From a virus, in IMG/VR virus record IMGVR_UViG_3300017755_000039, positions 1-33,151 of that record: a stretch of 33,151 bases of DNA; one strand, given 5' to 3'. Below, piece by piece: positions 13,792 through 33,151 of this stretch. The number at the start of each line of letters is the position of its first letter. The stretch's first letter is position 1. Both the position numbers and the translations under genes were made by a program. The notes under the pieces are model-generated. The model was not told where the DNA came from. It did not search any database and saw only the letters and a program-made list of their open reading frames with translations.

Positions 13792-16700
13792 ATGCCAGAA
13801 ATTAAACACACGTTTCAAGCCGGTAAAATGAATAAGGATCTAGACGAAAGACTAGTTCCTCAAGGTGAGTATAGAGACGCTTTAAATATAGAAGTGAGAA
13901 CTTCTGATGGAAACGATATAGGTGCTGCCCAAAATCTATATGGTAATCTAGAAAGATTATCGTATGATGAACTTAAAAACCCTATACAACCCACTGTAAA
14001 TAGTGATGGTGAAAAAAGTTATTTTGTAGGATCTATTTCAGATGAGAAAACTAATAACTCTTACTTTTTTGTAGCATCACCTAAAGTTACAAGTATAGAT
14101 CATCCCGCTGAACCAGTTAGGGTTTATAAAGATATGATTATAAAATATAACAGTGACAGTAAGAAGTTGTTTCCAGTGTTTACTGATATATTTAGAGTTG
14201 AAATGCGTGCTGGTATTGCTGAAGGTAGCGTGCATTTAGAAGATATGGGTAGTCAAATCACTCATTATGATCACATAGTCGTGGCTGAAGCGTTAGGAAA
14301 GTACGTTAGGCCTGGTATGTCTATAAATGTGTTAAACGCTACTGGTCAGTCAATCATGGGTACAGATATAGATTTCTATGAATCTTTAAACGGAATGCCT
14401 GGGAGTGTTATTGTTAGAGAGTTCGATCGTAGCACTAGAACAATCTGGTTTGATAGATATGTTATAGGAGACTTAACTCACGCTGCCTGCTTCGTGCTTG
14501 AATCTAATAAAGTTTTAAGATTTTCAAAAAATGGTTTAAAGCAGCATAGTAACTACATATCAGGTGTAAATATTATAAATAACTTATTGCTGTGGACTGA
14601 TAACGTAAACGAGCCTAGGAAGATAAACTTAGATAGATTAAAACAGTCAGCATCTTTTACTATACATTCCGATTTATATATAGATGATCCGTCTACGACA
14701 ACAAATAGTCTTGTAAAACTACAAAACATAGACAAATCCACAGATAGCTCTTACAAAGAAGAACATATAACTCTTATTAGGAGAGCTCCTAGAACCGCAC
14801 CTAAATTGATAATGTCGCAATTTGAGGGTGGAAAAGGAGAATCTTATTCGTCTTCTTGTGTTTTTAATTGGGTTTTAGAGGATGGGGAAAGTTTACCAGG
14901 CATAGATGACACTGTTAAACTTGATACTTTTGATGGAAATGGAAATGCGTTGGGTACCTCTTGTATAGCAGACGGTGATTCATTTTCATCTGGTCAAGTG
15001 TTACAGTTTACTTGTACTACCGAACCTCTAGTAGTAACAGCTGAGGTGCGTGTTACTATGTCTAATGGAGTCCACAGAGTAAAAATAATTAAAATAGACG
15101 ACGAGATAAACAGTTCTCATTTAGAATGGGATATAGAAATTGTTCAAAAGAAATCTATATTTGAAACTACATTTGGTAGGTTTGGTTATAGATATAAGTA
15201 TCAAGATGGAGAATACTCTTCTTTTTCGCCGTGGTCTGAACTAGCTTTCATGCCTAGTAACTTTGATTACTTACCTACAAAAGGTTATAATTTAGGTATG
15301 GTAAACATTATGAGGAGCTTGCAAATAACAGACTTTATTGTAGAGGATTTTCAAAGACCAGATGATGTTATTGCTGTTGATATTTTATTTAAAGATACTG
15401 TATCTCCAAATGTTTACGTAGTAAAATCCATAAGAAGAGGTTACGACGAAGAGTGGAACGATAATGTCGAGGGTAGCGGAAATTCAGGGGTTGTAGATAT
15501 AACTACTGAAATGATACACAAAACTCTCCCATCTTCTCAAACGTTGAGAGCTTGGGATAACGTACCAATAACAGCTAAAGCTCAAGAGGTTACTGGTAAT
15601 AGAATTGTTTTTGCGAACTATGAGCAGAACTATGATACTCTGAGAAAGGTGTTTGTACATCCTACTGTTGAATCCGCCGATCATCCAACAGACTTGAGTC
15701 CTATGAAATCTATAAAGTCTCTTAGGAGATACAAAGTTGGAGTTGTATTTGGTGATAAGTATGGTAGAGAAACACCAGTAATGGGTATAGGTGGTAAGGT
15801 TGTTGGTACGAGAGGCGGTAGTGGTTACGTTCATCTAGGAGATGAAGAAGCTAATCACCATCGAGATCAAACTTTTCCAGACAGCATATCTGTACCTAAA
15901 AATGTTTCATTTAAGGTAAATAAGATTAGTGCTGAGCTAAATTGGGATGGTACTCCTGAAAATTGGATGGAGTATTATAAATATTATATAAAAGAAACCA
16001 GTAATGAGTATTACAATTTAGTTATGGATAGATGGTATCCAGCTGAAGATGGTAATATATGGTTATCTTTTCAATCTTCTGATAGAAACAAAGTAGATAT
16101 AGAAACATATTTAACTTTAAAAAATAAACATGGTAGTGAGGATCCTGTAGAGGAAGATGCTAGATATAAGATATTAGCAATATCAAATGAAGCCCCTAGA
16201 TTTATAAAGAATACTAACAGAATAATAGGTCTTGAAGCGTTATCCAGTGATTCTGGTGTTGATCTAAGTAATACTCTAGGTGTCCAATGTGATTCATGGA
16301 CTGCTTACGATAATACTTTTAAGGATTATAAATTTGAAGGCGTTGGATGGGCTAGAATAGTTGGTACGCTATCAGGTGTTACTAGATTTTCTAAATGGGT
16401 TAGAATAGCTAGACTGCATGATGCAAATAGATCTATAACTGTTGTTGGATCTTTTGGTCCAACAGCTGATATGTCGGGTGATATTAACTTCGGTACTAGT
16501 ACAGGTTTAACTGTTAGCGTAGAGGTTAGAGATTCAGTGGAAGAGAATAGACCAGAGTTTGAAGGTAGATTCTTTGTAAAAGTATTTAAAGATGCTACGT
16601 TAACTAACACTATTTTAGGTACTAATGTAGCAACTTCATCTTATAAAACAGTGTCTTCATATAAAATTGGTTTTGTAGATAGTTCAACAGGGTCAGGTGG

Positions 16701-19700
16701 GTATGGTGGCTACAACCCATCGTCTTGGTCTAGATACCAAGGTGATTATGCGCCAGCTAGTCAGGGTGATGCTGGTATTGCAGATATTAACTATACTACA
16801 TGCGCTGTAGCTGGTGCGGAATGGGGTAGTGGAAACCCCCTTAGTGATTGGTCAAATGCTCTCAACGCTCACAATATACAATCCGGAAATATGTTGGCTC
16901 GTGATCACGGTGGCGCAGGCGCTGAAAACACTAAACAGTTTTGGAAATGGTATTGGAATGTAAACCCTGCGGGTGCTCGTAAGTGGTTTATAGATGGAGC
17001 AAACTGGAATAAAGGAAATAATCAACCTTGTGGAGCTATTAATGGGGATTGGGGTGACGAAAGTGCACTTAATGCTATGGGTACTGAAGGTCCTTTTTCT
17101 GTTGGAGAAGGAGAAATTAATCATATAGCGTTTGGTGCTATGAGAGATGATGAGTGGGATGAAGAAACTTTAGCTTTCCGTGATACGTTAATGCAAGAAG
17201 GTACTTTGTTTAGATTTAAGTCTGATCCCGGTGGTGGAGTAGGTAATGGTGATGGACAGTACACAGGTGACCCCACTATATACGTAGTTAGAGGTACAGA
17301 CATTGACACTGATGATGGTTTTGGACATTCAAAATCAAACTACGGTGGACAACATTCAGGTGGTAACTCGTATTGTCATGAATGTTATGAAGGCGCTAAC
17401 TGGAGTAACGTGTGTAAACGTGGTACATTTAAAGTGTACTTCTCTAGATATGACGACTTTACTAGAGGTTTAGATTTAGATTATTGGGATCCTAGATCAG
17501 CTTTGAGACATGATGGTACTACTATGACCTTTATAGAAATTGTACAATCTAGTTATGACAACACTGATGTACTACAAACTAGTGTTGGTAACGCTATATG
17601 GGAAACCGAACCTAAAGAAGATGTAGGATTAGATTTGTATTATGAAGCAACTAGTGCTTTACCTTTAAAGTTAAATAATTCTAATATACAATCATTTGCA
17701 CCTAATAACACTCCAGTTACATCTGAAAGATTAGATGCTGAAATGACACCGGTATCTTTAGATTACTGCTATATAATGACGCTAGATTTATCAAGTATCC
17801 TCAATAGCGATATCACTATGCCTAACCCTAATTACGTTGCTAAAACTCCAACGGTTAGATATGCTATTAGAGATGTTGTGGGACTAGGTCAAGCAGATGA
17901 TGTGGATGAGGTTACTCGTTATCCTATAGCTATTGGAGATGAATTAAGTTTCAATAGACTTGATGGCACTGTAACTAGGGCTGAAGTTATAGACCACTAT
18001 AAACCTATAACATCATACATTAATCAACAGGCTTACACGGCTATAGAAACCATGGAGGTTGAGGATTCTAATGTTTTTGGGATGTCCAGTGTTCAAGAGG
18101 TGGAAGTTGCTTACCCGTTCAATCCAGCTTCTTATGAGAGGTCATCAAGATACACGTTACAGTGCACTGTTAGTAATTTTAGTAGTCAAAGTATGATAGA
18201 GCTACCTACGGCAGCTTTACCTGACGATTTCAATAGTGACGATGGTAAGATTTGGGAAATAACATGTGAATATCTTGGGATCCGTAAAGGAACTTTTACT
18301 AAAACTATTCAAGATGGAGTCCCAGGTATAGATATTGCTGATTATTATACAACTATATTTTGGCATAATTGCGGTTACAGTGAACAGCAAACCTTAGAAA
18401 GTGGTACTTTTGATATAACATTCAAAGAGGTGACTGGTTATTATAGATTAAATCAAAATGTTTACAACAGTAAAACGACTCTACCTTGGTTTAATTGCTA
18501 TTCCTTTGGTAATGGTTTAGAGTCTGATAGAATACGAGACGATTTTAACGCACCTCAAATAGATAATGGTGTTAAGGTTTCAACTGGGCTTGAAGATTAT
18601 AGAAGAGAAAGAAGGGGTGGTGGATTAATATGGTCAGGTATATATAACTCTACAAGTGGCGTGAACAAGCTTAACGAGTTTAATATGGCTGAAGCTATAA
18701 CTAAAGATTTAAATCCTTCATATGGATCTATACAGGCTTTAAAAACTAGAGATACTAATTTAGTCACATTCTGCGAAGACAAAGTATTGCAAATATTAGC
18801 TAACAAAGACGCTCTATATAATGCAGATGGTAGTTCTAATGTTACAGCTTCTAATGTTGTATTAGGTAATGCTAAGGCGTTTGCTGGGGATTATGGTATA
18901 TCTTCGAACCCAGAGTCTTTAGCTTTTGACGCTTACAGAATATACTTTACAGATAAGCAAAGAGGTAAAGTTCTTAGGTTATCACAAGATGGTTTAACAC
19001 CTATTTCTGATGTTGGTATGTCAAGTTATTTTAGAGAAAACTTAAAACACGCTGATCAGTTGATTGGTACTTTTGATGAAGTAAAAGGTGAGTATAATTT
19101 AACTATTAAATATTTTGACTCATACTTAATATCAAACGAAAATTTAACAGATATAACTGTGTCTTTTAATGAGAAAACTAAAGGTTGGCCAAGTTTTAAA
19201 TCATTTGTACCAGATACTGGCTTGTCTATTAACGCTGAGTATATAACAGCCGCTAATGGTGGTGTTTGGTCACATCACAATAAGGACATACTCCAAACCA
19301 TTAATGGTGTAGAAGAACTAACTGTGCCAGCGAATAATTTTTATGGTGAACAATATAACTCTACCATAGACGTATTATTCAATGAGGATCCTGGAGTTAT
19401 AAAAGGTTTCACGGCTATGAATTATGAGGGTGATCAAGCTAAAACAACTGAGTGGAATCATGCTGGTCATTTAGCTTTAGATGCTAGTGGTGATAGCCTC
19501 GGCTACATTGGAGATGGTGAGTATTACAACTGGCATGGTAAAGATGGTTGGTTCGTAGAGAGTTTTAACACTGATCTTCAAGAATCTTCTGTTTTGGAAT
19601 TTATAAATAAAGAAGGTAAGTGGTTTAGCAACGTTAATGGTATACCTACCACTTTGGATAATTTAGACACTTCTGAATTTACAGTGCAAGGTATTGGTGT

Positions 19701-20739
19701 GGCAAGCGAAGTGGATCTACCCCAAGTTATTGGCTGTATGGATCCTTTAGCATTTAACTATGATCCCGAAGCTACTATTAGCTCAAACAGATGTAGTTAC
19801 GACTTAGAAGGTTGTACAGACCCTAATGCGTTTAATTTCAACGATGCTGCCACTGTAGATGATGGTAGTTGTATAGAGACTGTTTATGGATGTATGGATG
19901 TGGATGCATTAAATTATAATCCAAATGCAAATATTGATGATGGGTCTTGCGAATTCCAAGAGGAAATAAAACGTGGTTGTATGGATGAGAATGCTGACAA
20001 CTATGATGTTAACGCTACTATTCCTTGCCCTGATTGTTGTACTTACACTGCTTATGGTTGTATGGATCCTAATGCTTCTAACTACGATTATTTAGCTCAA
20101 GTAGATGATGGTTCTTGCGTACCTCACGTTGAGGGATGTACCGATTCCATAGCTCTTAATTATGATCCAGAAGCTACCGAAGGTAATCCACTTGCAGACA
20201 CGTGTGTATACAACTCGGGATGTATGGATCCAGACGCTTTTAATTACGACCCGGAAGCTGATACAGAAGAGTTTTGTAAGTCGTATTTTAACGTTGATGC
20301 TAGTGGAATACCTTCTTATAATTGGCAAGCCGCTGTTGACGATGATGATAGTTGCTGCATTCCAGTTATATATGGGTGTATGGATGAAGGTGCAATTAAT
20401 TATGACCCATTGGCAAACACACAAGGATGTCCAGATATAGACAACTTTGGACTCCATGGGTGGGTTGTGCCGGCTGGAGAAACACCTACACCTAACAACA
20501 TCTTGCCTCCTACTTCTCCTGAAGTGGTGGAGCTATACACGCAAGCCGATGGAGTAGAAAATTTCTTGGATGTTTATGATGCTGTATGTAAGTGTATATT
20601 TGAGGTTGGAGGTTGTACTGATCCAACAGCTACGAATTATAACTCAAACGCAACTTTTGATGATGGGTCTTGTGAGTATAAAGATTGGAGTATAAAAATA
20701 GAAGAAATGGGAACACACTTTCCTGATGATGGAAATTAA
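13792..20739 (+). CDS. Giant tail hub/stabilisation protein with C-terminal cysteine repeats
   Basis: A 2315-aa protein. It opens with FQAGKMNKDLDERLVPQGEY and RDALNIEVRTSDG (about 8-40), typical of podovirus tail hub or tail-stabilisation proteins. A conserved core returns late: DKVLQILANKDALYNADG (about 1662-1679), FAGDYGISSNPES, AYRIYFTDKQRGKVLRLSQD, GWPSFKSFVPDTGLS and NFYGEQYNSTIDVLFNEDPG. Between them lies a Gly/Trp/Asn-rich insertion (about 960-1240) with CHEC and a further Cys1208. After the core come nine repeats from residue 1981 to 2296 built on GC(M/T)DPxAxNYxPxAxxDDGSC, two with long insertions. The core probably forms the tail; insertion and repeats are likely surface-exposed host-binding parts, and the DDG turns could bind calcium. 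More than twice the size expected for a T7-like tail protein B. Confidence 0.8.
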   Translation: MPEIKHTFQAGKMNKDLDERLVPQGEYRDALNIEVRTSDGNDIGAAQNLYGNLERLSYDELKNPIQPTVNSDGEKSYFVGSISDEKTNNSYFFVASPKVTSIDHPAEPVRVYKDMIIKYNSDSKKLFPVFTDIFRVEMRAGIAEGSVHLEDMGSQITHYDHIVVAEALGKYVRPGMSINVLNATGQSIMGTDIDFYESLNGMPGSVIVREFDRSTRTIWFDRYVIGDLTHAACFVLESNKVLRFSKNGLKQHSNYISGVNIINNLLLWTDNVNEPRKINLDRLKQSASFTIHSDLYIDDPSTTTNSLVKLQNIDKSTDSSYKEEHITLIRRAPRTAPKLIMSQFEGGKGESYSSSCVFNWVLEDGESLPGIDDTVKLDTFDGNGNALGTSCIADGDSFSSGQVLQFTCTTEPLVVTAEVRVTMSNGVHRVKIIKIDDEINSSHLEWDIEIVQKKSIFETTFGRFGYRYKYQDGEYSSFSPWSELAFMPSNFDYLPTKGYNLGMVNIMRSLQITDFIVEDFQRPDDVIAVDILFKDTVSPNVYVVKSIRRGYDEEWNDNVEGSGNSGVVDITTEMIHKTLPSSQTLRAWDNVPITAKAQEVTGNRIVFANYEQNYDTLRKVFVHPTVESADHPTDLSPMKSIKSLRRYKVGVVFGDKYGRETPVMGIGGKVVGTRGGSGYVHLGDEEANHHRDQTFPDSISVPKNVSFKVNKISAELNWDGTPENWMEYYKYYIKETSNEYYNLVMDRWYPAEDGNIWLSFQSSDRNKVDIETYLTLKNKHGSEDPVEEDARYKILAISNEAPRFIKNTNRIIGLEALSSDSGVDLSNTLGVQCDSWTAYDNTFKDYKFEGVGWARIVGTLSGVTRFSKWVRIARLHDANRSITVVGSFGPTADMSGDINFGTSTGLTVSVEVRDSVEENRPEFEGRFFVKVFKDATLTNTILGTNVATSSYKTVSSYKIGFVDSSTGSGGYGGYNPSSWSRYQGDYAPASQGDAGIADINYTTCAVAGAEWGSGNPLSDWSNALNAHNIQSGNMLARDHGGAGAENTKQFWKWYWNVNPAGARKWFIDGANWNKGNNQPCGAINGDWGDESALNAMGTEGPFSVGEGEINHIAFGAMRDDEWDEETLAFRDTLMQEGTLFRFKSDPGGGVGNGDGQYTGDPTIYVVRGTDIDTDDGFGHSKSNYGGQHSGGNSYCHECYEGANWSNVCKRGTFKVYFSRYDDFTRGLDLDYWDPRSALRHDGTTMTFIEIVQSSYDNTDVLQTSVGNAIWETEPKEDVGLDLYYEATSALPLKLNNSNIQSFAPNNTPVTSERLDAEMTPVSLDYCYIMTLDLSSILNSDITMPNPNYVAKTPTVRYAIRDVVGLGQADDVDEVTRYPIAIGDELSFNRLDGTVTRAEVIDHYKPITSYINQQAYTAIETMEVEDSNVFGMSSVQEVEVAYPFNPASYERSSRYTLQCTVSNFSSQSMIELPTAALPDDFNSDDGKIWEITCEYLGIRKGTFTKTIQDGVPGIDIADYYTTIFWHNCGYSEQQTLESGTFDITFKEVTGYYRLNQNVYNSKTTLPWFNCYSFGNGLESDRIRDDFNAPQIDNGVKVSTGLEDYRRERRGGGLIWSGIYNSTSGVNKLNEFNMAEAITKDLNPSYGSIQALKTRDTNLVTFCEDKVLQILANKDALYNADGSSNVTASNVVLGNAKAFAGDYGISSNPESLAFDAYRIYFTDKQRGKVLRLSQDGLTPISDVGMSSYFRENLKHADQLIGTFDEVKGEYNLTIKYFDSYLISNENLTDITVSFNEKTKGWPSFKSFVPDTGLSINAEYITAANGGVWSHHNKDILQTINGVEELTVPANNFYGEQYNSTIDVLFNEDPGVIKGFTAMNYEGDQAKTTEWNHAGHLALDASGDSLGYIGDGEYYNWHGKDGWFVESFNTDLQESSVLEFINKEGKWFSNVNGIPTTLDNLDTSEFTVQGIGVASEVDLPQVIGCMDPLAFNYDPEATISSNRCSYDLEGCTDPNAFNFNDAATVDDGSCIETVYGCMDVDALNYNPNANIDDGSCEFQEEIKRGCMDENADNYDVNATIPCPDCCTYTAYGCMDPNASNYDYLAQVDDGSCVPHVEGCTDSIALNYDPEATEGNPLADTCVYNSGCMDPDAFNYDPEADTEEFCKSYFNVDASGIPSYNWQAAVDDDDSCCIPVIYGCMDEGAINYDPLANTQGCPDIDNFGLHGWVVPAGETPTPNNILPPTSPEVVELYTQADGVENFLDVYDAVCKCIFEVGGCTDPTATNYNSNATFDDGSCEYKDWSIKIEEMGTHFPDDGN
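19732..20679 (+). repeat. Nine cysteine-rich repeats in the tail protein C-terminus
   Basis: Protein repeats begin at residues 1981, 2007, 2033, 2062, 2089, 2115, 2143, 2195 and 2274 of the tail protein. Normal unit length is 26-29 residues; unit 7 is 52 and unit 8 is 79 because of inserts. The frame GC(M/T)D..A.NY...A...DDGSC is kept in most, with a Cys near each end. At DNA level the core TGTATGGAT recurs in six units, but the rest has drifted. Confidence 0.92.
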
Positions 20740-23682: not shown

Positions 23683-24540
23683 ATGATTGGAGCAATAGCA
23701 GGTCTAGCGGGTAGTGCCGTTAGTTATTTTGGTAATAGAAAAAAGCAAAAAGCAGCTGAGCGCGAGCAGGCTAAAGCTAAAGCCGCTATGGAAAAGCAGA
23801 GAGCTGCCTTTGAAGCTACTGATACTAGTAATCCTTTTGCTGGTATGACTAATCAATTTGCTGGCATGGAGAACACTATGGAAGACCTAACTGTTAACCA
23901 ACAAGAAGCTCAAATGATGAATCAGCAGGGTCAACAACAAAGAGCTAATATAATGGATCAAATGAGTGCTAGTGCCGGTGGTAGTGGTATTGCTGCGTTA
24001 GCACAACAGATGGCTCAATCAGGTCAACTAGCTTCTCAAAAAGCATCAGCTAGCATTGGTCAACAAGAAGCTGCTAATCAAGCTAAGATGGCTGCAGAGG
24101 CTGGTAGATTACAAACTCAAGAAGCTAAAGGAGCTCAAGATGTTGCTACTCAAATAGCTGCAGGTGATCAAGTAGCACAACAACGAGAAATGGATAAACA
24201 GTCGACCTTACTAGGCATGGATCAATCAGCTTATGCGGGTGCTCAAGAGAGAACAGCAGCTGCTGAAGAAGCAAAAATGGGTGCGTTAAGTAGTGGGATT
24301 AGTGCTATTGGTGGTTTGTTTTCTGATAGAAGATTGAAGAAGAACATCACGTTGGTTGGTAGATCACCTGGAGATATTAACATATACACGTTCGAATATA
24401 TTAATGATAGGTTTGGTAAAGGTGTTTATCAAGGTGTTATGTCTGATGAGGTACCAAGTGAAGCTATTATTGCGCATGAGTCAGGGTATGATATGGTTGA
24501 TTACTCGAAGATAGATGTAGAATTTAAAAGTATTAAATAA
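23683..24540 (+). CDS. Internal virion-type protein with C-terminal S74-like chaperone motif
   Basis: A 285-aa protein with two unlike parts. Residues 1-205 begin with a hydrophobic Gly/Ala helix (MIGAIAGLAGSAVSYFG) and continue as an Ala/Gln/Met-rich helical region, like ejected internal proteins of podoviruses. Residues 214-280 begin SDRRLKKNI and continue INIYTFEY, GVYQGVMSDEVP and GYDMVDYSKIDVEFK, the pattern of the intramolecular chaperone domain (Peptidase S74) that normally ends phage fibres and endosialidases. In that family the domain helps trimerisation and may cut itself off at a Ser. The next gene shares TAATG with this one. It may be an ejection protein that needs help folding, or a tail needle-like part. 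Confidence 0.75.
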   Translation: MIGAIAGLAGSAVSYFGNRKKQKAAEREQAKAKAAMEKQRAAFEATDTSNPFAGMTNQFAGMENTMEDLTVNQQEAQMMNQQGQQQRANIMDQMSASAGGSGIAALAQQMAQSGQLASQKASASIGQQEAANQAKMAAEAGRLQTQEAKGAQDVATQIAAGDQVAQQREMDKQSTLLGMDQSAYAGAQERTAAAEEAKMGALSSGISAIGGLFSDRRLKKNITLVGRSPGDINIYTFEYINDRFGKGVYQGVMSDEVPSEAIIAHESGYDMVDYSKIDVEFKSIK

Positions 24541-25871: not shown

Positions 25872-28800
25872 ATGGTAAGAAAGAAATTTAAACTTCCCAA
25901 TGATCCTACAGTATACAATGTTAATGTAGAATCAGAGAAGGGGAAAGAGTGGTTAAATAAAAACACTAATGCTCAAGTAGTAGAAGAAGAAGAGAAAGAA
26001 GAGGAAGAGGTTACTGAGCAGGGAAACCAGCAAGATCCTGCACCAAGTGCGACTGCGGGATCGGAAACTGCAGCACAAGATCAAGAGGCGGGTCAGTCTC
26101 AAAACAATCAACAACAAGATACGGAATCAGCATCGGAAGATACTTCTTCGGAATTACCAGAAGCATATAAAGGCTTAGAGGTATTACAGGCTAAACTAAC
26201 TAAGTCTAATGAAGACTTAAAAGCTTTTGACTACGAAGCTCAATTAAAAGATATGAAAGCTTCTATAGACGAAGCTAGAATAATGGGTGATCAAGACTCT
26301 TACGAAAGATCAGTCAATAGCTACAATAATATACTATCTGATTATCAAGGTAAGATAGATTCTCATAACGACATGTATAAAAGTTATGAAAATCTTTATA
26401 AAGACTACGAGGAGTTTGCTAAGCAATCTCAAGCGAAGCCTAAGGAAGAAGATCTTGGGTGGATAGATGGTATAGTAGAAACTGTTAAGAGTTTAGGTAA
26501 CGAAGAAGAAAGAAACAAGTTAGTTGGTAACGTAAAGAATGCTGTAGTATCTAACTTTAAAGAAAGAGCCTCTAGGCAGTTATTAAATACTATGGGCTGG
26601 GCTTTTGGTATGCAACAAAAGAAAGCTAAGTTCTTTGGTCAAGAAGAGGAAGCTAAGGAGATGGAAAAGTATATAGCAGAAGTGTATGCTAAGCTTGATA
26701 AATTAGAGTCTGAAGAAGGTTTAGAAATTAAAACTATAAAAGGAGCCAACCAGATAGCTAAAGGGATGGACGAAAGTCTTGCTGAAAAAGGAATATTAAA
26801 ATTCGAAGACACGGGAAAAGGTTTTGTTAAGGGTATTAAAGGTGGTAGTGCTGCTGATGCGGTAGGTGGTATGGCTAATTTTATTATGGGTACAGCCGAA
26901 TCTGTTATACCTGCCGTATTAACTAGAGGGGCTTCTATATATCCTCAAATGGCAGCTCCTATGGTTGTTTCTTACAATAAGGAAAAAGCCAAAGCTTTAT
27001 ACGGCGACGATCCAGAAGCTATCAGTAAATTACTCGCTGATGATGAAATGGAGATTAGCACGCCAATGGCGATGGGTATGGTTGCTGCTGGATTAGAGCA
27101 TATAGGTTTCAAAGGTATAACTAAGTATGCTGCAGGTAAAGCTTTTGCAAACAAAATAGGTGGTAGTATAGTATTTAGTATGGGCCAAGAGGGTACTACA
27201 GAGTGGTTACAAGGTGGTGTAACAAAATTTAGTGATGCTGTTGGTGGGCAGAAAGAAACTACTGAAGCTTCTAAAGAAGCTTGGGACCATCTATTTAGCG
27301 ACGAAGGTTTAGAAGATTTCTTTTCTGGAGTTATTGGTGGTGGTGCTTTGAGTGGCTCTGGTAGAATTCTCAATAGAGCATTGAGGAATGACGATGACAG
27401 TGTTAACAATGTTAATAGAGCTATAGATAAAATAGCTGAATTAAATATACAGAAGAACAAGACTAAAAACAAAGCGGTAAAAGAGGCTTTACAGGTAGAA
27501 ATAAACGAGATCGAAGGTGATCTAAAAAAATACATAAAAGAAAGTAGAGGTCTTAAAAAGTATTTAACTAAGCAGCAGAGTTCTGAGATGATAACTTTAT
27601 TAGCTAAGAAAGACGGCATAAACGATAAGGTTAAAAATCTTAAGTCTGAACTTGAAGCTGGTAAAATAACTAACAAAGATTATGGGTATGCTATAAGAAG
27701 TTTGAACGCTCAGTCAAAAAAGATTAGTAACTCTATGTCTGCTATAAAACAAGAAGCTTTAAAAGCTGAGTCTAACAGGCAAGCTGAGCAAGTTAAAGAA
27801 CAGATAAAAGTTGCTGGGTTGGATGGTGAGGTTAAACAAATGACCTCTGAAGAGATAGCCGAAGCAGATCTTGGTAAGGAGGTTAATTCTAAGGATGCTT
27901 CTAATCAATATGGTTTTATTAGAGACTTTGGTGATGGAAGTTTTGAGATAATATTAAACAAAGATAAACCAGCTGTTGGTGTTGCTGCTCACGAATTCCT
28001 ACATGCTGTATTAAACAAGACCATAAAAGGAGATCCTAAGGTTGGTAAGCAGTTAGCTGATGCCTTGAGTAAACACGTTGATACTTTAGAGGGTGATCAA
28101 TCTGCTTTTAAGCAAAGAATGAAAAACTACGAAGGCAGCGAAGACATAGGAGAAGAAACTATTACTGTAATGTCTGAGAGTATACTTAATGGTGATTTAA
28201 AATTTGATGATGGTTTCTTTACTAAAGTAGGTGATGTTATTAGAAGATTCTTACAAGGTAATGGTTTGACTGACATACAGTTTAACACAGGTAAGGATGT
28301 TTACAACTTCATAAAAGATTATAACAAGAGTATAAAGTCTGGTAAAACAAACAAAGCTATAATTAAAGTAGCTAAAGAAGGTGCTAAAGGTAGGCTTGTA
28401 GAAGGAGCTGAAGCTAGTACAGGTCCATCTGTTAAAGCTTCTCGTGACGCTAAAATACCTATAGATAAACTAGGTCAAGTGGACGGTGATGGTATGAGTA
28501 TGACTAAACCTGGTATGGGTAACTTCTTGTATCAAGCTGAAGCTGATGAGGTAGTTCGTAAAATAAAAGAAGAAGGTTACTTAGACAACCTCATAGCTTC
28601 TAAATATAAAGTCAGACCTGTACCTCAAGACTTTGTCCAAGATGTATTAGCAGAATTAACACCTCATATTAAAGCTTTTAAACCTGAAAGCAATGATAGT
28701 TTATTTGGTTGGATTCAAAGTCAGATAGCTAATAAAGCTAGTCGCGTGTATAATACTATATATAAAAATAAAGGTCCAGCTAGAACTGTGCAAGCTGACG

Positions 28801-31800
28801 CAACAACATCTGAAGGAGCTCCTGTCGTTCAATTAGAGGCTGATACAGACATCGAAATGGAACGTATCGATGAAATGGGTCTTAATGACGAGCAAACTCA
28901 AGAGAGATCAAGATTTAGACGCGCATTAAAGCTTGATGACACTATGGTTGATAGAGTTATCAACGCAGTTAAAAAAGCTTTTGGTACTAAGTTACCTAAC
29001 ATAAATACTAAGCAGTTTAAACAATCATTAGCTAAAGCTTTTAAGACTGATCTTAAAAAACCTATGCAAGACTTGATGGGTAAAGGAAAAGACTACGACG
29101 CTTTCCTTAACAAGTTTATGCCAGCTATATATAGGAACTTACCAGTTGAAGTGTTGGTTCAAATGGAACGTAATTTAAGCCCTGACCTTAGAATATTCAC
29201 ATCGTCAAGAAGGATAACAAAACCCGTTGAGGTTGATCAACTAATATCTCAAGGTAAACTACCTAAAGATACTAGCAGAACTTCTGGACCGTTATTAAAT
29301 ACTAAACTACCTTACCCTGGTAAAGATAATATATTGGCTTTCTTCCGTGGTACTAACTCTCAAGAGTTATTAGGTTATAAAAAAGGTGCGTCTACATACG
29401 GTACTAGAAAAGACGTGTTAGCTGAAAGAGCTATAACAGAAGTAGCTTTCGACGCTGTAGCTACTGTGATACAAGATCAAGACGTTGCTAGTAAAATAGA
29501 AGACCTCAATATAGCTGGTATAGATAAAGTTGAAAACGATTTAGCTATGGTAGCTAAACAGATAGATAGAGACCCTACTATTAAGTTTTCTAGATCTGCT
29601 ATTGGTGTTAAAAAAGAAAATGTACCTGTATTTAGCTCTAAGTTTAATCAAGTTTTAAACAGAATAAATAGCAATGAGACTTTACCTACAGATAAAAAAG
29701 GTTTAAAGAAAATAATAAAAGATATTTACGAAGGCGATCTTGACAACTCAGAAATGAACGCTGTTGTAAATAAAATAATAAGATACTCTACAGACTTTAT
29801 AGATCAAAAAGCTAAGACTAAAGATTTAGCTTACGTAGATATTAAGCTTACTGATTATATACTTGAGGCTACAGAGAAAGATGTTGTTGATAAATCCACG
29901 TATCAGCTGCTTAGTAAACTACTCCCTAGTGGTTATAAAAACGCCGCGGCTTTTTTCAATGACAAAGCTAGAATAAACAAAGCAAGATCAGCTTTTGCTA
30001 GTTTTGTTCAAGACTTAAGAGATAGTAATCTTACCGAGAATGAGATATTAAGATTACTACACACACAATATAGAGGCATGTATGCTAGTTCTACTAAAAT
30101 AGCTGCAGGCCAGTTTTCTGTAGAGTTTATTGATGGTGCTTACGTTGTTGTAGAAGGTGACGGTAAAGTAGGTACTCACAGAGGGCAAGTGTTCGAGAAC
30201 ACTCCAGACTTTTGGAGGGTAGCTGGTTATCCAAACTATAAAGAACTGTTAAAAAACGTTGACACAAAAACTTTCTCTGAAACTTCTAAAGCTGCTGTAT
30301 CAGATAGAAACTACGAAGGTAGATTAAAGCAAGCTAAAGAAGCTAGACAAGCTGTGTTAAAGATAATGGATTATTACTTTGGTAAAATAAAAAACGGCGA
30401 GTTAGATTACGGCGATCTTCTTATGTTGGCTAAAATGTTTATGTCAAATATGAACTCACCAATGAAGAGAGCTGCTAACTTAACTTACATAGCTGAAGGA
30501 GTAGATAGTATAAATCCTGATGATATGGGTAGGTTGACAGAGTATGAGCACATAGTGCCTACTGGTGTTATGGTACTTAAACTTTTCACTGCTTATGTTA
30601 AAGATGGTAAGGCTTCAGAAAATATATTTGATGGTTACGAAGTTGCTATTATACCTAAGTCTATGGATAAGGTATTAATTAAAAACGGTCTAAGAGACTT
30701 TTTGCCTATAACCTATAAAGAAGGTGATCCTAACTGGAAAAGATATTTTAACAAGCAAACTCTTGGGGAAAACAATTTAGTACCTATAGTTAATATAAAA
30801 ACTGGTGAGGTAGTAGGAGCTGACTTTGTTAAAGCTAGTAATCTATTGAATGCAACAGAGGTTGGTCAGAAAGGCCAACAGTTAATACAGAAAGTATCTG
30901 TTAAGTATTCTAAGTCAAAAGGTATGTCAACGTTTGACTTTGATGAAACATTAATTATAGGAGGTAAGAACTTCGTTGTAGCAAATGATCCAAAGACTGG
31001 TAAGACAGCTAAGATAAGCAGTGAAGAGTGGCCAATCAAAGGTCCAGACTACGCTGACGCTGGTTGGACGTTTGATTTCTCCGACTTTGCAAATGTGCGT
31101 GGCGGTAAAGAAGGACCACTACTTCAAAAGATGAGGAATCAAATAGAGAAGTACGGTAATAAAAACGTGTTTGTATTAACAGCTAGACAGCAAGCCTCTG
31201 CTGGACCTATACAACAATGGCTTAAATCTAAAGGTATTAATTTACCTCTTAGAAATATAACTGGATTAGGTAAGAGTGAAGGTTCTGCTAAAGGTGAGTG
31301 GATGTTACAGAAGTTTGCTGAAGGTTATAACGATATGTATTTCGTTGATGACGCTTTACCAAACGTTGAAGCTGTTAAGAAGGTGTTAGATCAGTTAGAT
31401 ATTAAATCTAAAGTAGTTCAAGCTAAAGTTAAGTTTAGTAAGTCAGCTAGTCAAGACTTTAATGATATGCTTGAGCGTAGTAAAGGTGTTGATGCTAACA
31501 TAGAAATATCTGACATTGACGCTAAACTACGTGGTGCTAAGCGCGACAGGTTTAAACTAAGATTCTTTGTGCCACCTTCTGCTGAAGACTTAAAAGGATT
31601 AGTATATGCTTTTCTAGGTAAGGGTGAGCGTGGTAATAAAGATATGCAGTGGTTTAAAGATAATCTGTTTACACCATTTGCTAAAGGTACTAAAGAGCTA
31701 AACTCTCTAAGACAAAAGATGAGCGAAGAGTATACAGCGTTGAAGAAACAATTTCCTAACGTGGTAAAATCTCTTAACGATAAAGTAGCTAACACAGAGT

Positions 31801-33151
31801 TTACTGTTGACAATGCTATAAGAGTTTATCTTTGGAACCAAGCTGGCTTTGACGTACCAGGTTTGTCAGAGGCTCAGAATAAATTATTAGTAGATCACGT
31901 GGCTAACAATCCTGAGCTAATAGCCTTTGCTGACGTACTCAGTAATATAACTAGAACTGAAGAAGGTTATATAAAACCTAAAGATTACTGGATAACTCAG
32001 AATGTAGGTAGTGATTTACATACGGTAGCTGAGACTATAAACAGAGAAAAGTTCCTAGCTGAATGGCAAGAGAACGCAGATCTAATATTCTCTAAAGAAA
32101 ACTTAAATAAGATAGAAGCTATATATGGCTCTAACTTTAGAGAAGCTTTAGAAGATATGCTGTACAGAATGAGGACTGGTAGCAACAGGCCTAGTGGTAG
32201 AACTTCTGTAGAGAATAAGTTCTTAAACTGGGTTAACGGAGCTGTTAGTGCGGTGATGTTCTTTAATAATAGATCAGCTGCACTTCAAGGTTTATCTATG
32301 GTTAACTTCCTTAACTTTGAAGACAACAACATGTTCAAAGCAGCCAAAGCTTTTGCCAATCAAAAACAATTCTGGGCTGACTTTATATATCTGTTTAACT
32401 CAGACATGTTAAAACAAAGACGTGCCGGATTAAAAATAGATGTATCAGCTTCTGAGCTAACAGATGCGTTTGCTCAAGGAAAAAATAAAACAGAAGCTGT
32501 AATTAAGTATTTATTAGAAAAAGGTTTTATACCTACTAAGATGATGGATAGTTTTGCTATTGCTATGGGTGGTTCTACGTTTTATAGAAATAGAGTTGAG
32601 AAGTTAATTAAGCAAGGTATGTCTAAGACTGAAGCTCAAGACCAAGCCTTCTTAGATTTCCAAGAGATAGCAGAAGAAACTCAGCAGTCTTCTCGACCTG
32701 ATCTTATATCAATGCAACAAGCATCGTCTCTTGGTAGATTAATACTTGCTTGGGCTAACACGCCTATGCAGTACACTAGATTAACTAAGAAAGCTTTGTC
32801 TGACATCATTAACCGTAGAGGTGATACTAAGGCTAACGTCTCTAGAATATTATACTACGGCGCTGTACAGAACATTATATTCGGTACACTTCAAACTGGT
32901 TTAGCCTTCCTAATGTTTGGTGATGATGAAGAAGATAAGAACAGAGATAAGAAAGAACAGAGAGTTCTTAATGGTATGTTAGACACTCTACTTAGAGGTG
33001 TTGGTGTTTATGGCGCTTTAGTTTCAGCTGCTAAAAATACTTTAATGCAGGCTCATGAAGAACTTGGTAAAGGTTACGGTCAGAAGGACTACTCTAAAAT
33101 AATGCAACAGTTGATTAACTTATCTCCACCAATAGGTAGTAAGGTTAGAAA
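25872..33151 (+). CDS. Giant modular 'polyvalent' cargo/ejection protein (3' end outside window)
   Basis: An uninterrupted frame of 2426 codons that is still open at the right edge. It begins MVRKKFKLPNDPTVYNVNVE. Residues 30-100 are acidic Glu/Gln-rich; about 320-445 hold hydrophobic stretches; 690-840 contain a zincin motif HEFLH (707-711) with a later EETITVMSE (761-769) and VGDVIRRFLQGNG. Residues 1685-1831 are a HAD phosphatase domain: DFDETL (1689-1694), LTAR (1769-1772), Lys1801 or Lys1807, and VDDALPN (1825-1831). An EHIVP motif lies at 1559-1563. A long helical C-terminal region has AWANTPMQYTRLTKKA and two hydrophobic segments (about 2330-2350, 2376-2393). K(F/Y)S(K/R)S occurs at 1238, 1678 and 1854. 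Architecture fits polyvalent proteins that phages deliver into the host cell; delivery is inference. Confidence 0.85.
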   Translation, partial: MVRKKFKLPNDPTVYNVNVESEKGKEWLNKNTNAQVVEEEEKEEEEVTEQGNQQDPAPSATAGSETAAQDQEAGQSQNNQQQDTESASEDTSSELPEAYKGLEVLQAKLTKSNEDLKAFDYEAQLKDMKASIDEARIMGDQDSYERSVNSYNNILSDYQGKIDSHNDMYKSYENLYKDYEEFAKQSQAKPKEEDLGWIDGIVETVKSLGNEEERNKLVGNVKNAVVSNFKERASRQLLNTMGWAFGMQQKKAKFFGQEEEAKEMEKYIAEVYAKLDKLESEEGLEIKTIKGANQIAKGMDESLAEKGILKFEDTGKGFVKGIKGGSAADAVGGMANFIMGTAESVIPAVLTRGASIYPQMAAPMVVSYNKEKAKALYGDDPEAISKLLADDEMEISTPMAMGMVAAGLEHIGFKGITKYAAGKAFANKIGGSIVFSMGQEGTTEWLQGGVTKFSDAVGGQKETTEASKEAWDHLFSDEGLEDFFSGVIGGGALSGSGRILNRALRNDDDSVNNVNRAIDKIAELNIQKNKTKNKAVKEALQVEINEIEGDLKKYIKESRGLKKYLTKQQSSEMITLLAKKDGINDKVKNLKSELEAGKITNKDYGYAIRSLNAQSKKISNSMSAIKQEALKAESNRQAEQVKEQIKVAGLDGEVKQMTSEEIAEADLGKEVNSKDASNQYGFIRDFGDGSFEIILNKDKPAVGVAAHEFLHAVLNKTIKGDPKVGKQLADALSKHVDTLEGDQSAFKQRMKNYEGSEDIGEETITVMSESILNGDLKFDDGFFTKVGDVIRRFLQGNGLTDIQFNTGKDVYNFIKDYNKSIKSGKTNKAIIKVAKEGAKGRLVEGAEASTGPSVKASRDAKIPIDKLGQVDGDGMSMTKPGMGNFLYQAEADEVVRKIKEEGYLDNLIASKYKVRPVPQDFVQDVLAELTPHIKAFKPESNDSLFGWIQSQIANKASRVYNTIYKNKGPARTVQADATTSEGAPVVQLEADTDIEMERIDEMGLNDEQTQERSRFRRALKLDDTMVDRVINAVKKAFGTKLPNINTKQFKQSLAKAFKTDLKKPMQDLMGKGKDYDAFLNKFMPAIYRNLPVEVLVQMERNLSPDLRIFTSSRRITKPVEVDQLISQGKLPKDTSRTSGPLLNTKLPYPGKDNILAFFRGTNSQELLGYKKGASTYGTRKDVLAERAITEVAFDAVATVIQDQDVASKIEDLNIAGIDKVENDLAMVAKQIDRDPTIKFSRSAIGVKKENVPVFSSKFNQVLNRINSNETLPTDKKGLKKIIKDIYEGDLDNSEMNAVVNKIIRYSTDFIDQKAKTKDLAYVDIKLTDYILEATEKDVVDKSTYQLLSKLLPSGYKNAAAFFNDKARINKARSAFASFVQDLRDSNLTENEILRLLHTQYRGMYASSTKIAAGQFSVEFIDGAYVVVEGDGKVGTHRGQVFENTPDFWRVAGYPNYKELLKNVDTKTFSETSKAAVSDRNYEGRLKQAKEARQAVLKIMDYYFGKIKNGELDYGDLLMLAKMFMSNMNSPMKRAANLTYIAEGVDSINPDDMGRLTEYEHIVPTGVMVLKLFTAYVKDGKASENIFDGYEVAIIPKSMDKVLIKNGLRDFLPITYKEGDPNWKRYFNKQTLGENNLVPIVNIKTGEVVGADFVKASNLLNATEVGQKGQQLIQKVSVKYSKSKGMSTFDFDETLIIGGKNFVVANDPKTGKTAKISSEEWPIKGPDYADAGWTFDFSDFANVRGGKEGPLLQKMRNQIEKYGNKNVFVLTARQQASAGPIQQWLKSKGINLPLRNITGLGKSEGSAKGEWMLQKFAEGYNDMYFVDDALPNVEAVKKVLDQLDIKSKVVQAKVKFSKSASQDFNDMLERSKGVDANIEISDIDAKLRGAKRDRFKLRFFVPPSAEDLKGLVYAFLGKGERGNKDMQWFKDNLFTPFAKGTKELNSLRQKMSEEYTALKKQFPNVVKSLNDKVANTEFTVDNAIRVYLWNQAGFDVPGLSEAQNKLLVDHVANNPELIAFADVLSNITRTEEGYIKPKDYWITQNVGSDLHTVAETINREKFLAEWQENADLIFSKENLNKIEAIYGSNFREALEDMLYRMRTGSNRPSGRTSVENKFLNWVNGAVSAVMFFNNRSAALQGLSMVNFLNFEDNNMFKAAKAFANQKQFWADFIYLFNSDMLKQRRAGLKIDVSASELTDAFAQGKNKTEAVIKYLLEKGFIPTKMMDSFAIAMGGSTFYRNRVEKLIKQGMSKTEAQDQAFLDFQEIAEETQQSSRPDLISMQQASSLGRLILAWANTPMQYTRLTKKALSDIINRRGDTKANVSRILYYGAVQNIIFGTLQTGLAFLMFGDDEEDKNRDKKEQRVLNGMLDTLLRGVGVYGALVSAAKNTLMQAHEELGKGYGQKDYSKIMQQLINLSPPIGSKVR

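Follow-up and report, generated by a model that had tools for sequence, protein, structure and literature searches.

The sequence analyzed here, called the window, is the whole of the virus record IMGVR_UViG_3300017755_000039 of IMG/VR, 33,151 nt in length. A giant gene (2426+ aa) sits in it after the terminase, portal, structural and ejection genes, and the features of the locus are collected in Table 1. The terminase, portal and structural proteins of the window match phage families. The closest terminase is that of MW202828 (63%); those of the elemo phages of Flavobacterium (46%) and of phages from Cellulophaga and Tenacibaculum (32-38%) come next, and the gene order of the window is similar to that of these terminase-related phages. 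MS/MS places gp123, the product of the last large gene of phage phi18:3, in the virion, and the N-terminal region of phi18:3 gp123, phi38:1 gp101 and elemoE gp18 is homologous to members of the giant's family. For these reasons, the giant, whose family occurs in uncultured marine phages, is probably a virion protein of a Flavobacteriia phage, and packaging of the chain itself is suggested by the virion-proven homologue.

No significant Pfam or PHROG match was found over the full giant chain. Neither the whole chain nor the members of the C-terminal alignment (A1) matched a Pfam family above cutoff, the curated polyvalent/LPD families included, and in a segment-wise scan of the giant DUF2608 alone matched. 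In tblastn of the giant against phage records no record holding the protein was found, and a segment searched against plasmid records returned nothing.

Three other genes of the window were noted. A GroES-like protein is encoded at 1920-2519 (phrog_13932, E=6e-12), and GroEL and GroES occur in related phages. A large ORF at 13792-20739 carries repeated GCMDPNAFNYDPEAT...DDGSC-like units close to its C-terminus, which we take to be of a type familiar from Bacteroidota proteins. Also, a small separate ORF at 672-1022 has the zincin signature INHEMQH.

Table 1. Features of the giant gene and its neighbour in the window (residue numbers refer to the giant protein).
Feature	Residues	Window position	Strand	Evidence or remark
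DNA ejection protein-like neighbour gene		23683..24540	+	phrog_4287 'DNA ejection protein', E=9.5e-11
Giant virion-type protein (P0001), probable		25872..33149	+	last ORF; 2426 aa in window; 3' end beyond record
Zincin (HExxH) metallopeptidase domain, predicted	~640-830	27789..28361	+	conserved catalytic residues; AlphaFold model
VKASR, degenerate border motif after zincin	854-858	28431..28445	+	border position in homologues
Helical domain between zincin and motif 1		28446..29582	+	AlphaFold helices
Border motif 1, KFSRS	1238-1242	29583..29597	+	domain end in most of 10 aligned homologues
Middle region, including EHxxP-containing domain ~1480-1660	1243-1677	29598..30902	+	
Border motif 2, KYSKS	1678-1682	30903..30917	+	~15 pairwise homologies begin at 1674-1683
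HAD phosphatase-like domain	1683-1853 (171 aa)	30918..31430	+	DUF2608, E=3.7e-6
Border motif 3, KFSKS	1854-1858	31431..31445	+	S 49/51, F 35/50, K 32/49 across homologues
EISDI, degenerate second linker site, 24 aa after motif 3	1878-1882	31503..31517	+	
Conserved C-terminal helical domain (alignment A1)	1893-2426	31548..33149	+	42-52% identity to four relatives

Domains of the giant protein

The H, E, H and distal E of the predicted zincin site, with its catalytic HEFLH at residues 707-711 (nt 27990-28004), are nearly invariant in 47 homologues, and Foldseek with the zincin model gave weak matches only. Within the helical domain that follows, residues ~895-965 (28554-28766), DFVQDVLAELTPHIKAFKPESNDSLFGWIQSQIANKASRVYN, resemble sigma-70 region 2. 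Several weak Foldseek matches of this part were to sigma region 2 (best 2map, probability 0.47), and a PDB sequence search with the sigma-like region returned nothing useful. A virion-borne sigma-like domain would be notable. In the middle region, the pLDDT of the AlphaFold model exceeds 90 over much of residues 1480-1650, and the confidently predicted domain at ~1470-1645 (30279-30800) contains YEHIVP (EHxxP), possibly HNH-like.

The earlier note had read KFSRS, KYSKS and KFSKS, with a weaker VKASR, as domain borders in a chain with a HEFLH zincin, and had the last two motifs bracketing a HAD phosphatase. All five words were found again, beginning at residues 1238, 1678, 1854, 854 and 707, respectively, and the HAD core does fill the interval between motifs 2 and 3. 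Foldseek ranked mostly HAD structures at the top for this domain, with probabilities up to 0.98 and no E-value below 0.01. In the AlphaFold model of residues 1470-1960, motif 3 is one of three stretches with pLDDT below 50 and sits directly after the last HAD strand, before the next helix. In the model of residues 600-1260, motif 1 lies within a disordered stretch and VKASR forms a short strand of modest confidence, with disordered stretches on either side.

Recurrence and placement of the border motif

The C-terminal domain has 538 relatives in IMG/VR, of which 80 were fetched; these gave a comparison set of 68 proteins and, from it, 45 divergent representatives. All proteins above 1700 residues in the comparison set have HExxH. 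Another 29 proteins, none of them shared with this set, were ascertained through the zincin, and the A1 domain is present in every 3'-complete giant among them. For scanning, a diverse alignment of zincins (A4) proved too variable, and a closer zincin alignment was usable. A further set consisted of 70 HAD loci. The MAG bins that contain the relatives L099-L112 bear labels as different as Flavobacteriales, Aliivibrio and Woesearchaeota, and these relatives are most likely misbinned phage contigs.

The motif is far more frequent than composition predicts. None of 5000 shuffles of the giant reached its three copies of K[FY]S[KR]S (shuffle mean 0.01). In the 45 representatives, the parts before the C-terminal domain hold 79 copies of [KQMR][FY]S[KR], or 8.4 per 10,000 aa, compared with 7-11 copies, about 1 per 10,000 aa, for permuted patterns. 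The 29 zincin-found proteins replicated this result, with 44 copies against 0-6 for permuted patterns (8.3 vs 0-1.1 per 10,000 aa). Among the other ORFs encoded at these loci (n = 460) there was no enrichment (16 copies, 1.3, vs 14-15 for permutations). Chance or composition as the source of the motif was thus ruled out by the shuffles, permuted patterns, other ORFs and replication set, and a general prohead-protease site was disfavoured by the zero enrichment outside the giant.

The family-wide consensus is [IV][KQMR][FY]S[KR]x, in which the Ser is nearly invariant. The K(F/Y)S(K/R)S pattern first proposed is recurrent, and its first and last residues are looser than it implied. In the border copies, information is restricted to the four motif residues and a weak preceding I/V, a pattern that fits a recognized short linear motif. 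VKASR is indeed a weaker copy, since at this border at the end of the zincin the relatives carry QFSK, KFSK, MSK, LSK or ASK. Two more [KR][FY]S words in the giant, KFSDA at 452 and RYSTD at 1304, have no K/R following and are probably coincidental. The linker after motif 3 (residues 1854-1892, 31431-31547) is different in that FN..(L/I)E..(T)G is conserved there as well, and its second site, EISDI in the giant, is FSxA in most homologues (S 50/52, F/Y 47/52). Conservation in this linker exceeds the need of a bare linker or a bare cut site.

Placement at borders was tested against independent homology breaks, with borders defined as the ends of pairwise homology and the repeated post-HAD linker left out. 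The proportion of the 51 motif sites lying within 10 residues of a break was 86%, compared with 38% expected (mean of the permutation test; maximum of 2000 trials 61%; control patterns 11-55%), where the background is already high owing to the many homology ends and a conserved motif can itself stretch an alignment to that point. Stronger support comes from single cases. Homologies to P0001 stop at 1240-1247, right after motif 1; among 10 homologues aligned here, nearly all have this motif as the end of the domain, and many retain it and then run on into unrelated sequence. Retention at the borders is strong for motifs 1 and 3 and weaker for motif 2, which precedes the HAD in about 28 of the 70 HAD loci (~40%). 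The post-HAD border has [FLYM]S[KRE] in 42 of the 70, and several others have FS alone. The motif is therefore absent from some borders in some homologues and is not universal.

The modules between the motifs vary. The relative L034 shares only residues 1676-1859, the HAD as a unit, and the C-terminal part with the giant, and between them lies an additional module that we read as GNAT-like (without a Pfam match). In L085 the place of the HAD is taken by a module resembling ART-PolyVal (E=1.1e-5, under the curated Pfam cutoff), which has a motif at each side. A module of L056 starts with the motif in 8 of 8 contigs, and lies N-terminal of the HAD in part of these contigs and C-terminal of it in others. 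In all, HAD, ART-like, GNAT-like and 'HRxEY' modules have the motif at one edge or at both. Standalone HAD proteins of other phages are without it. Solitary tags also occur, in sequence that is unrelated apart from the tag and has no conserved partner segment close by. Since modules shift position with the motif kept at their edge, the borders are exchange points.

The serine codons indicate the level at which the motif is maintained. Outside the post-HAD linker, 24 motif serines are AGY and 27 are TCN, and both codon types are mixed in 21 of 25 proteins with at least two motifs; P0001 itself has TCT, TCT and AGT. Because the motif serines draw on both codon families and modules carry the motif along when they move, selection acts on the amino acids and not at the level of DNA joints. 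In the HAD-based set the serines after the HAD are AGY throughout (42 of 42), so this site looks inherited, and the other sites seem to have arisen separately. In addition, the residue after the Ser is more uniform within a protein than expected (p=0.0026), and sites with an acidic residue there (FSE) are concentrated in L034 and L084 (p<1e-4). The L034 giant has six border tags (residues 1195-2497), each of which reads FSE rather than FSK/R, as though a recognizer had shifted its preference. Such covariation of sites within a protein fits one recognizer per phage; copying between sites inside one gene may also produce the uniformity. The tag is real, family-wide, located mostly at borders and kept at the protein level.

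Comparison with other giant phage proteins

The recurrent border motif appears to be undescribed in giant phage proteins, and in the open-licence literature no border motif or cleavage tag was found described for them. The closest parallel is with the polyvalent proteins, for which autoprocessing by the MPTase was predicted without sites being given and among which DdrB of phage P1 was reported as processed (Iyer 2017, PMC5512222). Like these, the giant is very large, lies beside virion genes and joins a zincin to unrelated modules; the module order is variable, an ART-PolyVal occurs in a relative, and self-processing has been proposed (PMC5512222). However, no Pfam polyvalent-domain family matches the giant chain, and a text search of PMC5512222 found neither the HAD module nor a recurrent border motif. 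We infer that the giant is a modular 'polyvalent' protein, presumably delivered with the virion.

Other giants share parts of this arrangement. The proteins phi18:3 gp123, phi38:1 gp101 and elemoE gp18 (Pachyviridae/Pervagoviridae/Elemovirus) are likewise encoded by the last gene after the tail genes and match members of the giant's family in their N-terminal region (E down to 2e-18), but show no motif enrichment and no match to the A1 C-terminal domain. The two Cellulophaga giants among them are also without HExxH, and phi18:3 gp123 has two motif copies against 0.3 expected. The vRNAP of Schitoviridae (N4 gp50) is likewise a giant that is injected; linkers join its domains, one of which carries HExxH (PMC12633501). 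It differs in being packaged uncut, zincin included (PMC5512222), in having one motif-like word and in being built around an RNA polymerase. The crAss001 gp47 resembles the giant in size and gene order and has a C-terminal HEAFH, but lacks the motif and has no significant BLAST match. Overall, the motif was absent or near chance in the N4, RPP1, crAss001, Cellulophaga, elemo and Gundel giants, and a zincin occurs without motif enrichment in elemoE gp18, MW202828, Gundel_1, crAss001 gp47 and N4 vRNAP.

Possible functions of the tag

The reading we favor, at a probability of roughly 45%, is that the tags are processing sites cut by the in-chain zincin, with both the cutting and the cutter deduced indirectly. 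The tag [IV][K/Q/M/R][F/Y]S[K/R] would be a short linear motif in flexible joints between modules, which the zincin would recognize and cut during or after delivery, and cutting would release the HAD enzyme and other modules. This reading is favored because of the predicted disorder of the linkers, the near-invariant HExxH plus E in the chain and the precedent of phage P1. Several points stand against zincin cutting: some borders in some homologues lack the tag, the zincin giants of elemoE, MW202828, Gundel_1 and crAss001 lack the motif, and N4 vRNAP is packaged whole with its zincin (PMC5512222). Also, the presence of the motif follows the A1 C-terminal domain more closely than it follows the zincin, a comparison confounded by sampling through A1, and the recognizer may therefore be something other than the zincin. 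Lastly, the near-invariant residue of the tag is a Ser, and many zincins select chiefly for a hydrophobic P1' residue. A cut by another protease, host- or phage-encoded, would draw on the same motif evidence and would agree with the occurrence of zincins in giants without the motif, but it is unlikely. Apart from the giant, HExxH was noticed in one gene of the window, the ORF at 672-1022, which was rejected as a shared trans protease because it has no relatives in any fetched locus. The 41 loci with at least 3 kb downstream hold no small HExxH ORF, and no prohead protease was recognized among the window genes scanned (a subset of the ORFs).

The main rival to zincin cutting is a docking motif, in which the joints would be bound by another domain (e.g. 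the C-terminal one) or by a virion or chaperone protein and no cutting would occur; we regard this as possible but doubtful. To order, package or thread the chain is a role that such docking might have, and we consider that role equally doubtful. Docking owes its rank to the uncut N4 vRNAP (PMC5512222), to the zincin giants without the motif and to the association of the motif with the C-terminal domain. GroES-like proteins in elemoE, MW202828, phi38:1 and possibly the window phage, and the extra conservation in the linker after motif 3, which goes beyond what a cut site needs, also agree with it. However, the solitary tags have no conserved partner segment, and no partner is known. A purely structural role, in which the tag would close the edge of each domain as a short strand or a cap, for folding and with neither partner nor protease, is quite improbable: the predicted strand of VKASR and the copy directly after the last HAD strand agree with it, but motifs 1 and 3 are predicted to be disordered, unrelated domains have the tag in common and standalone HAD proteins lack it. 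The earlier note had also suggested recombination joints for module swapping. The part of this suggestion that stood is that the borders are points of module exchange, with modules changing position with the motif at their edge and homology breaks clustering there. A short shared DNA sequence as the joint was rejected on the AGY/TCN split, and there is no conserved nucleotide word, which makes this explanation very improbable. Thus, the observation of the earlier note is confirmed and its interpretation is partly supported.

Under zincin processing, the border tag gives exact, testable sites for a self-cleavage that has been proposed since 2017 without sites, and it explains how modules are exchanged without breaking processing. 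The tag is also a way to locate domain borders and unknown enzymes in giants that match no database family. Should the tag instead be a docking tag, it would point to an unknown packaging or delivery device. More broadly, and tentatively, the giant could be an 'effector polyprotein', an injected chain of interchangeable enzymes placed between universal cleavage tags that are read by an in-chain protease. If this is true, new effectors can be slotted between tags, and tag and reader co-evolve, with FSK in most lineages and FSE in L034.
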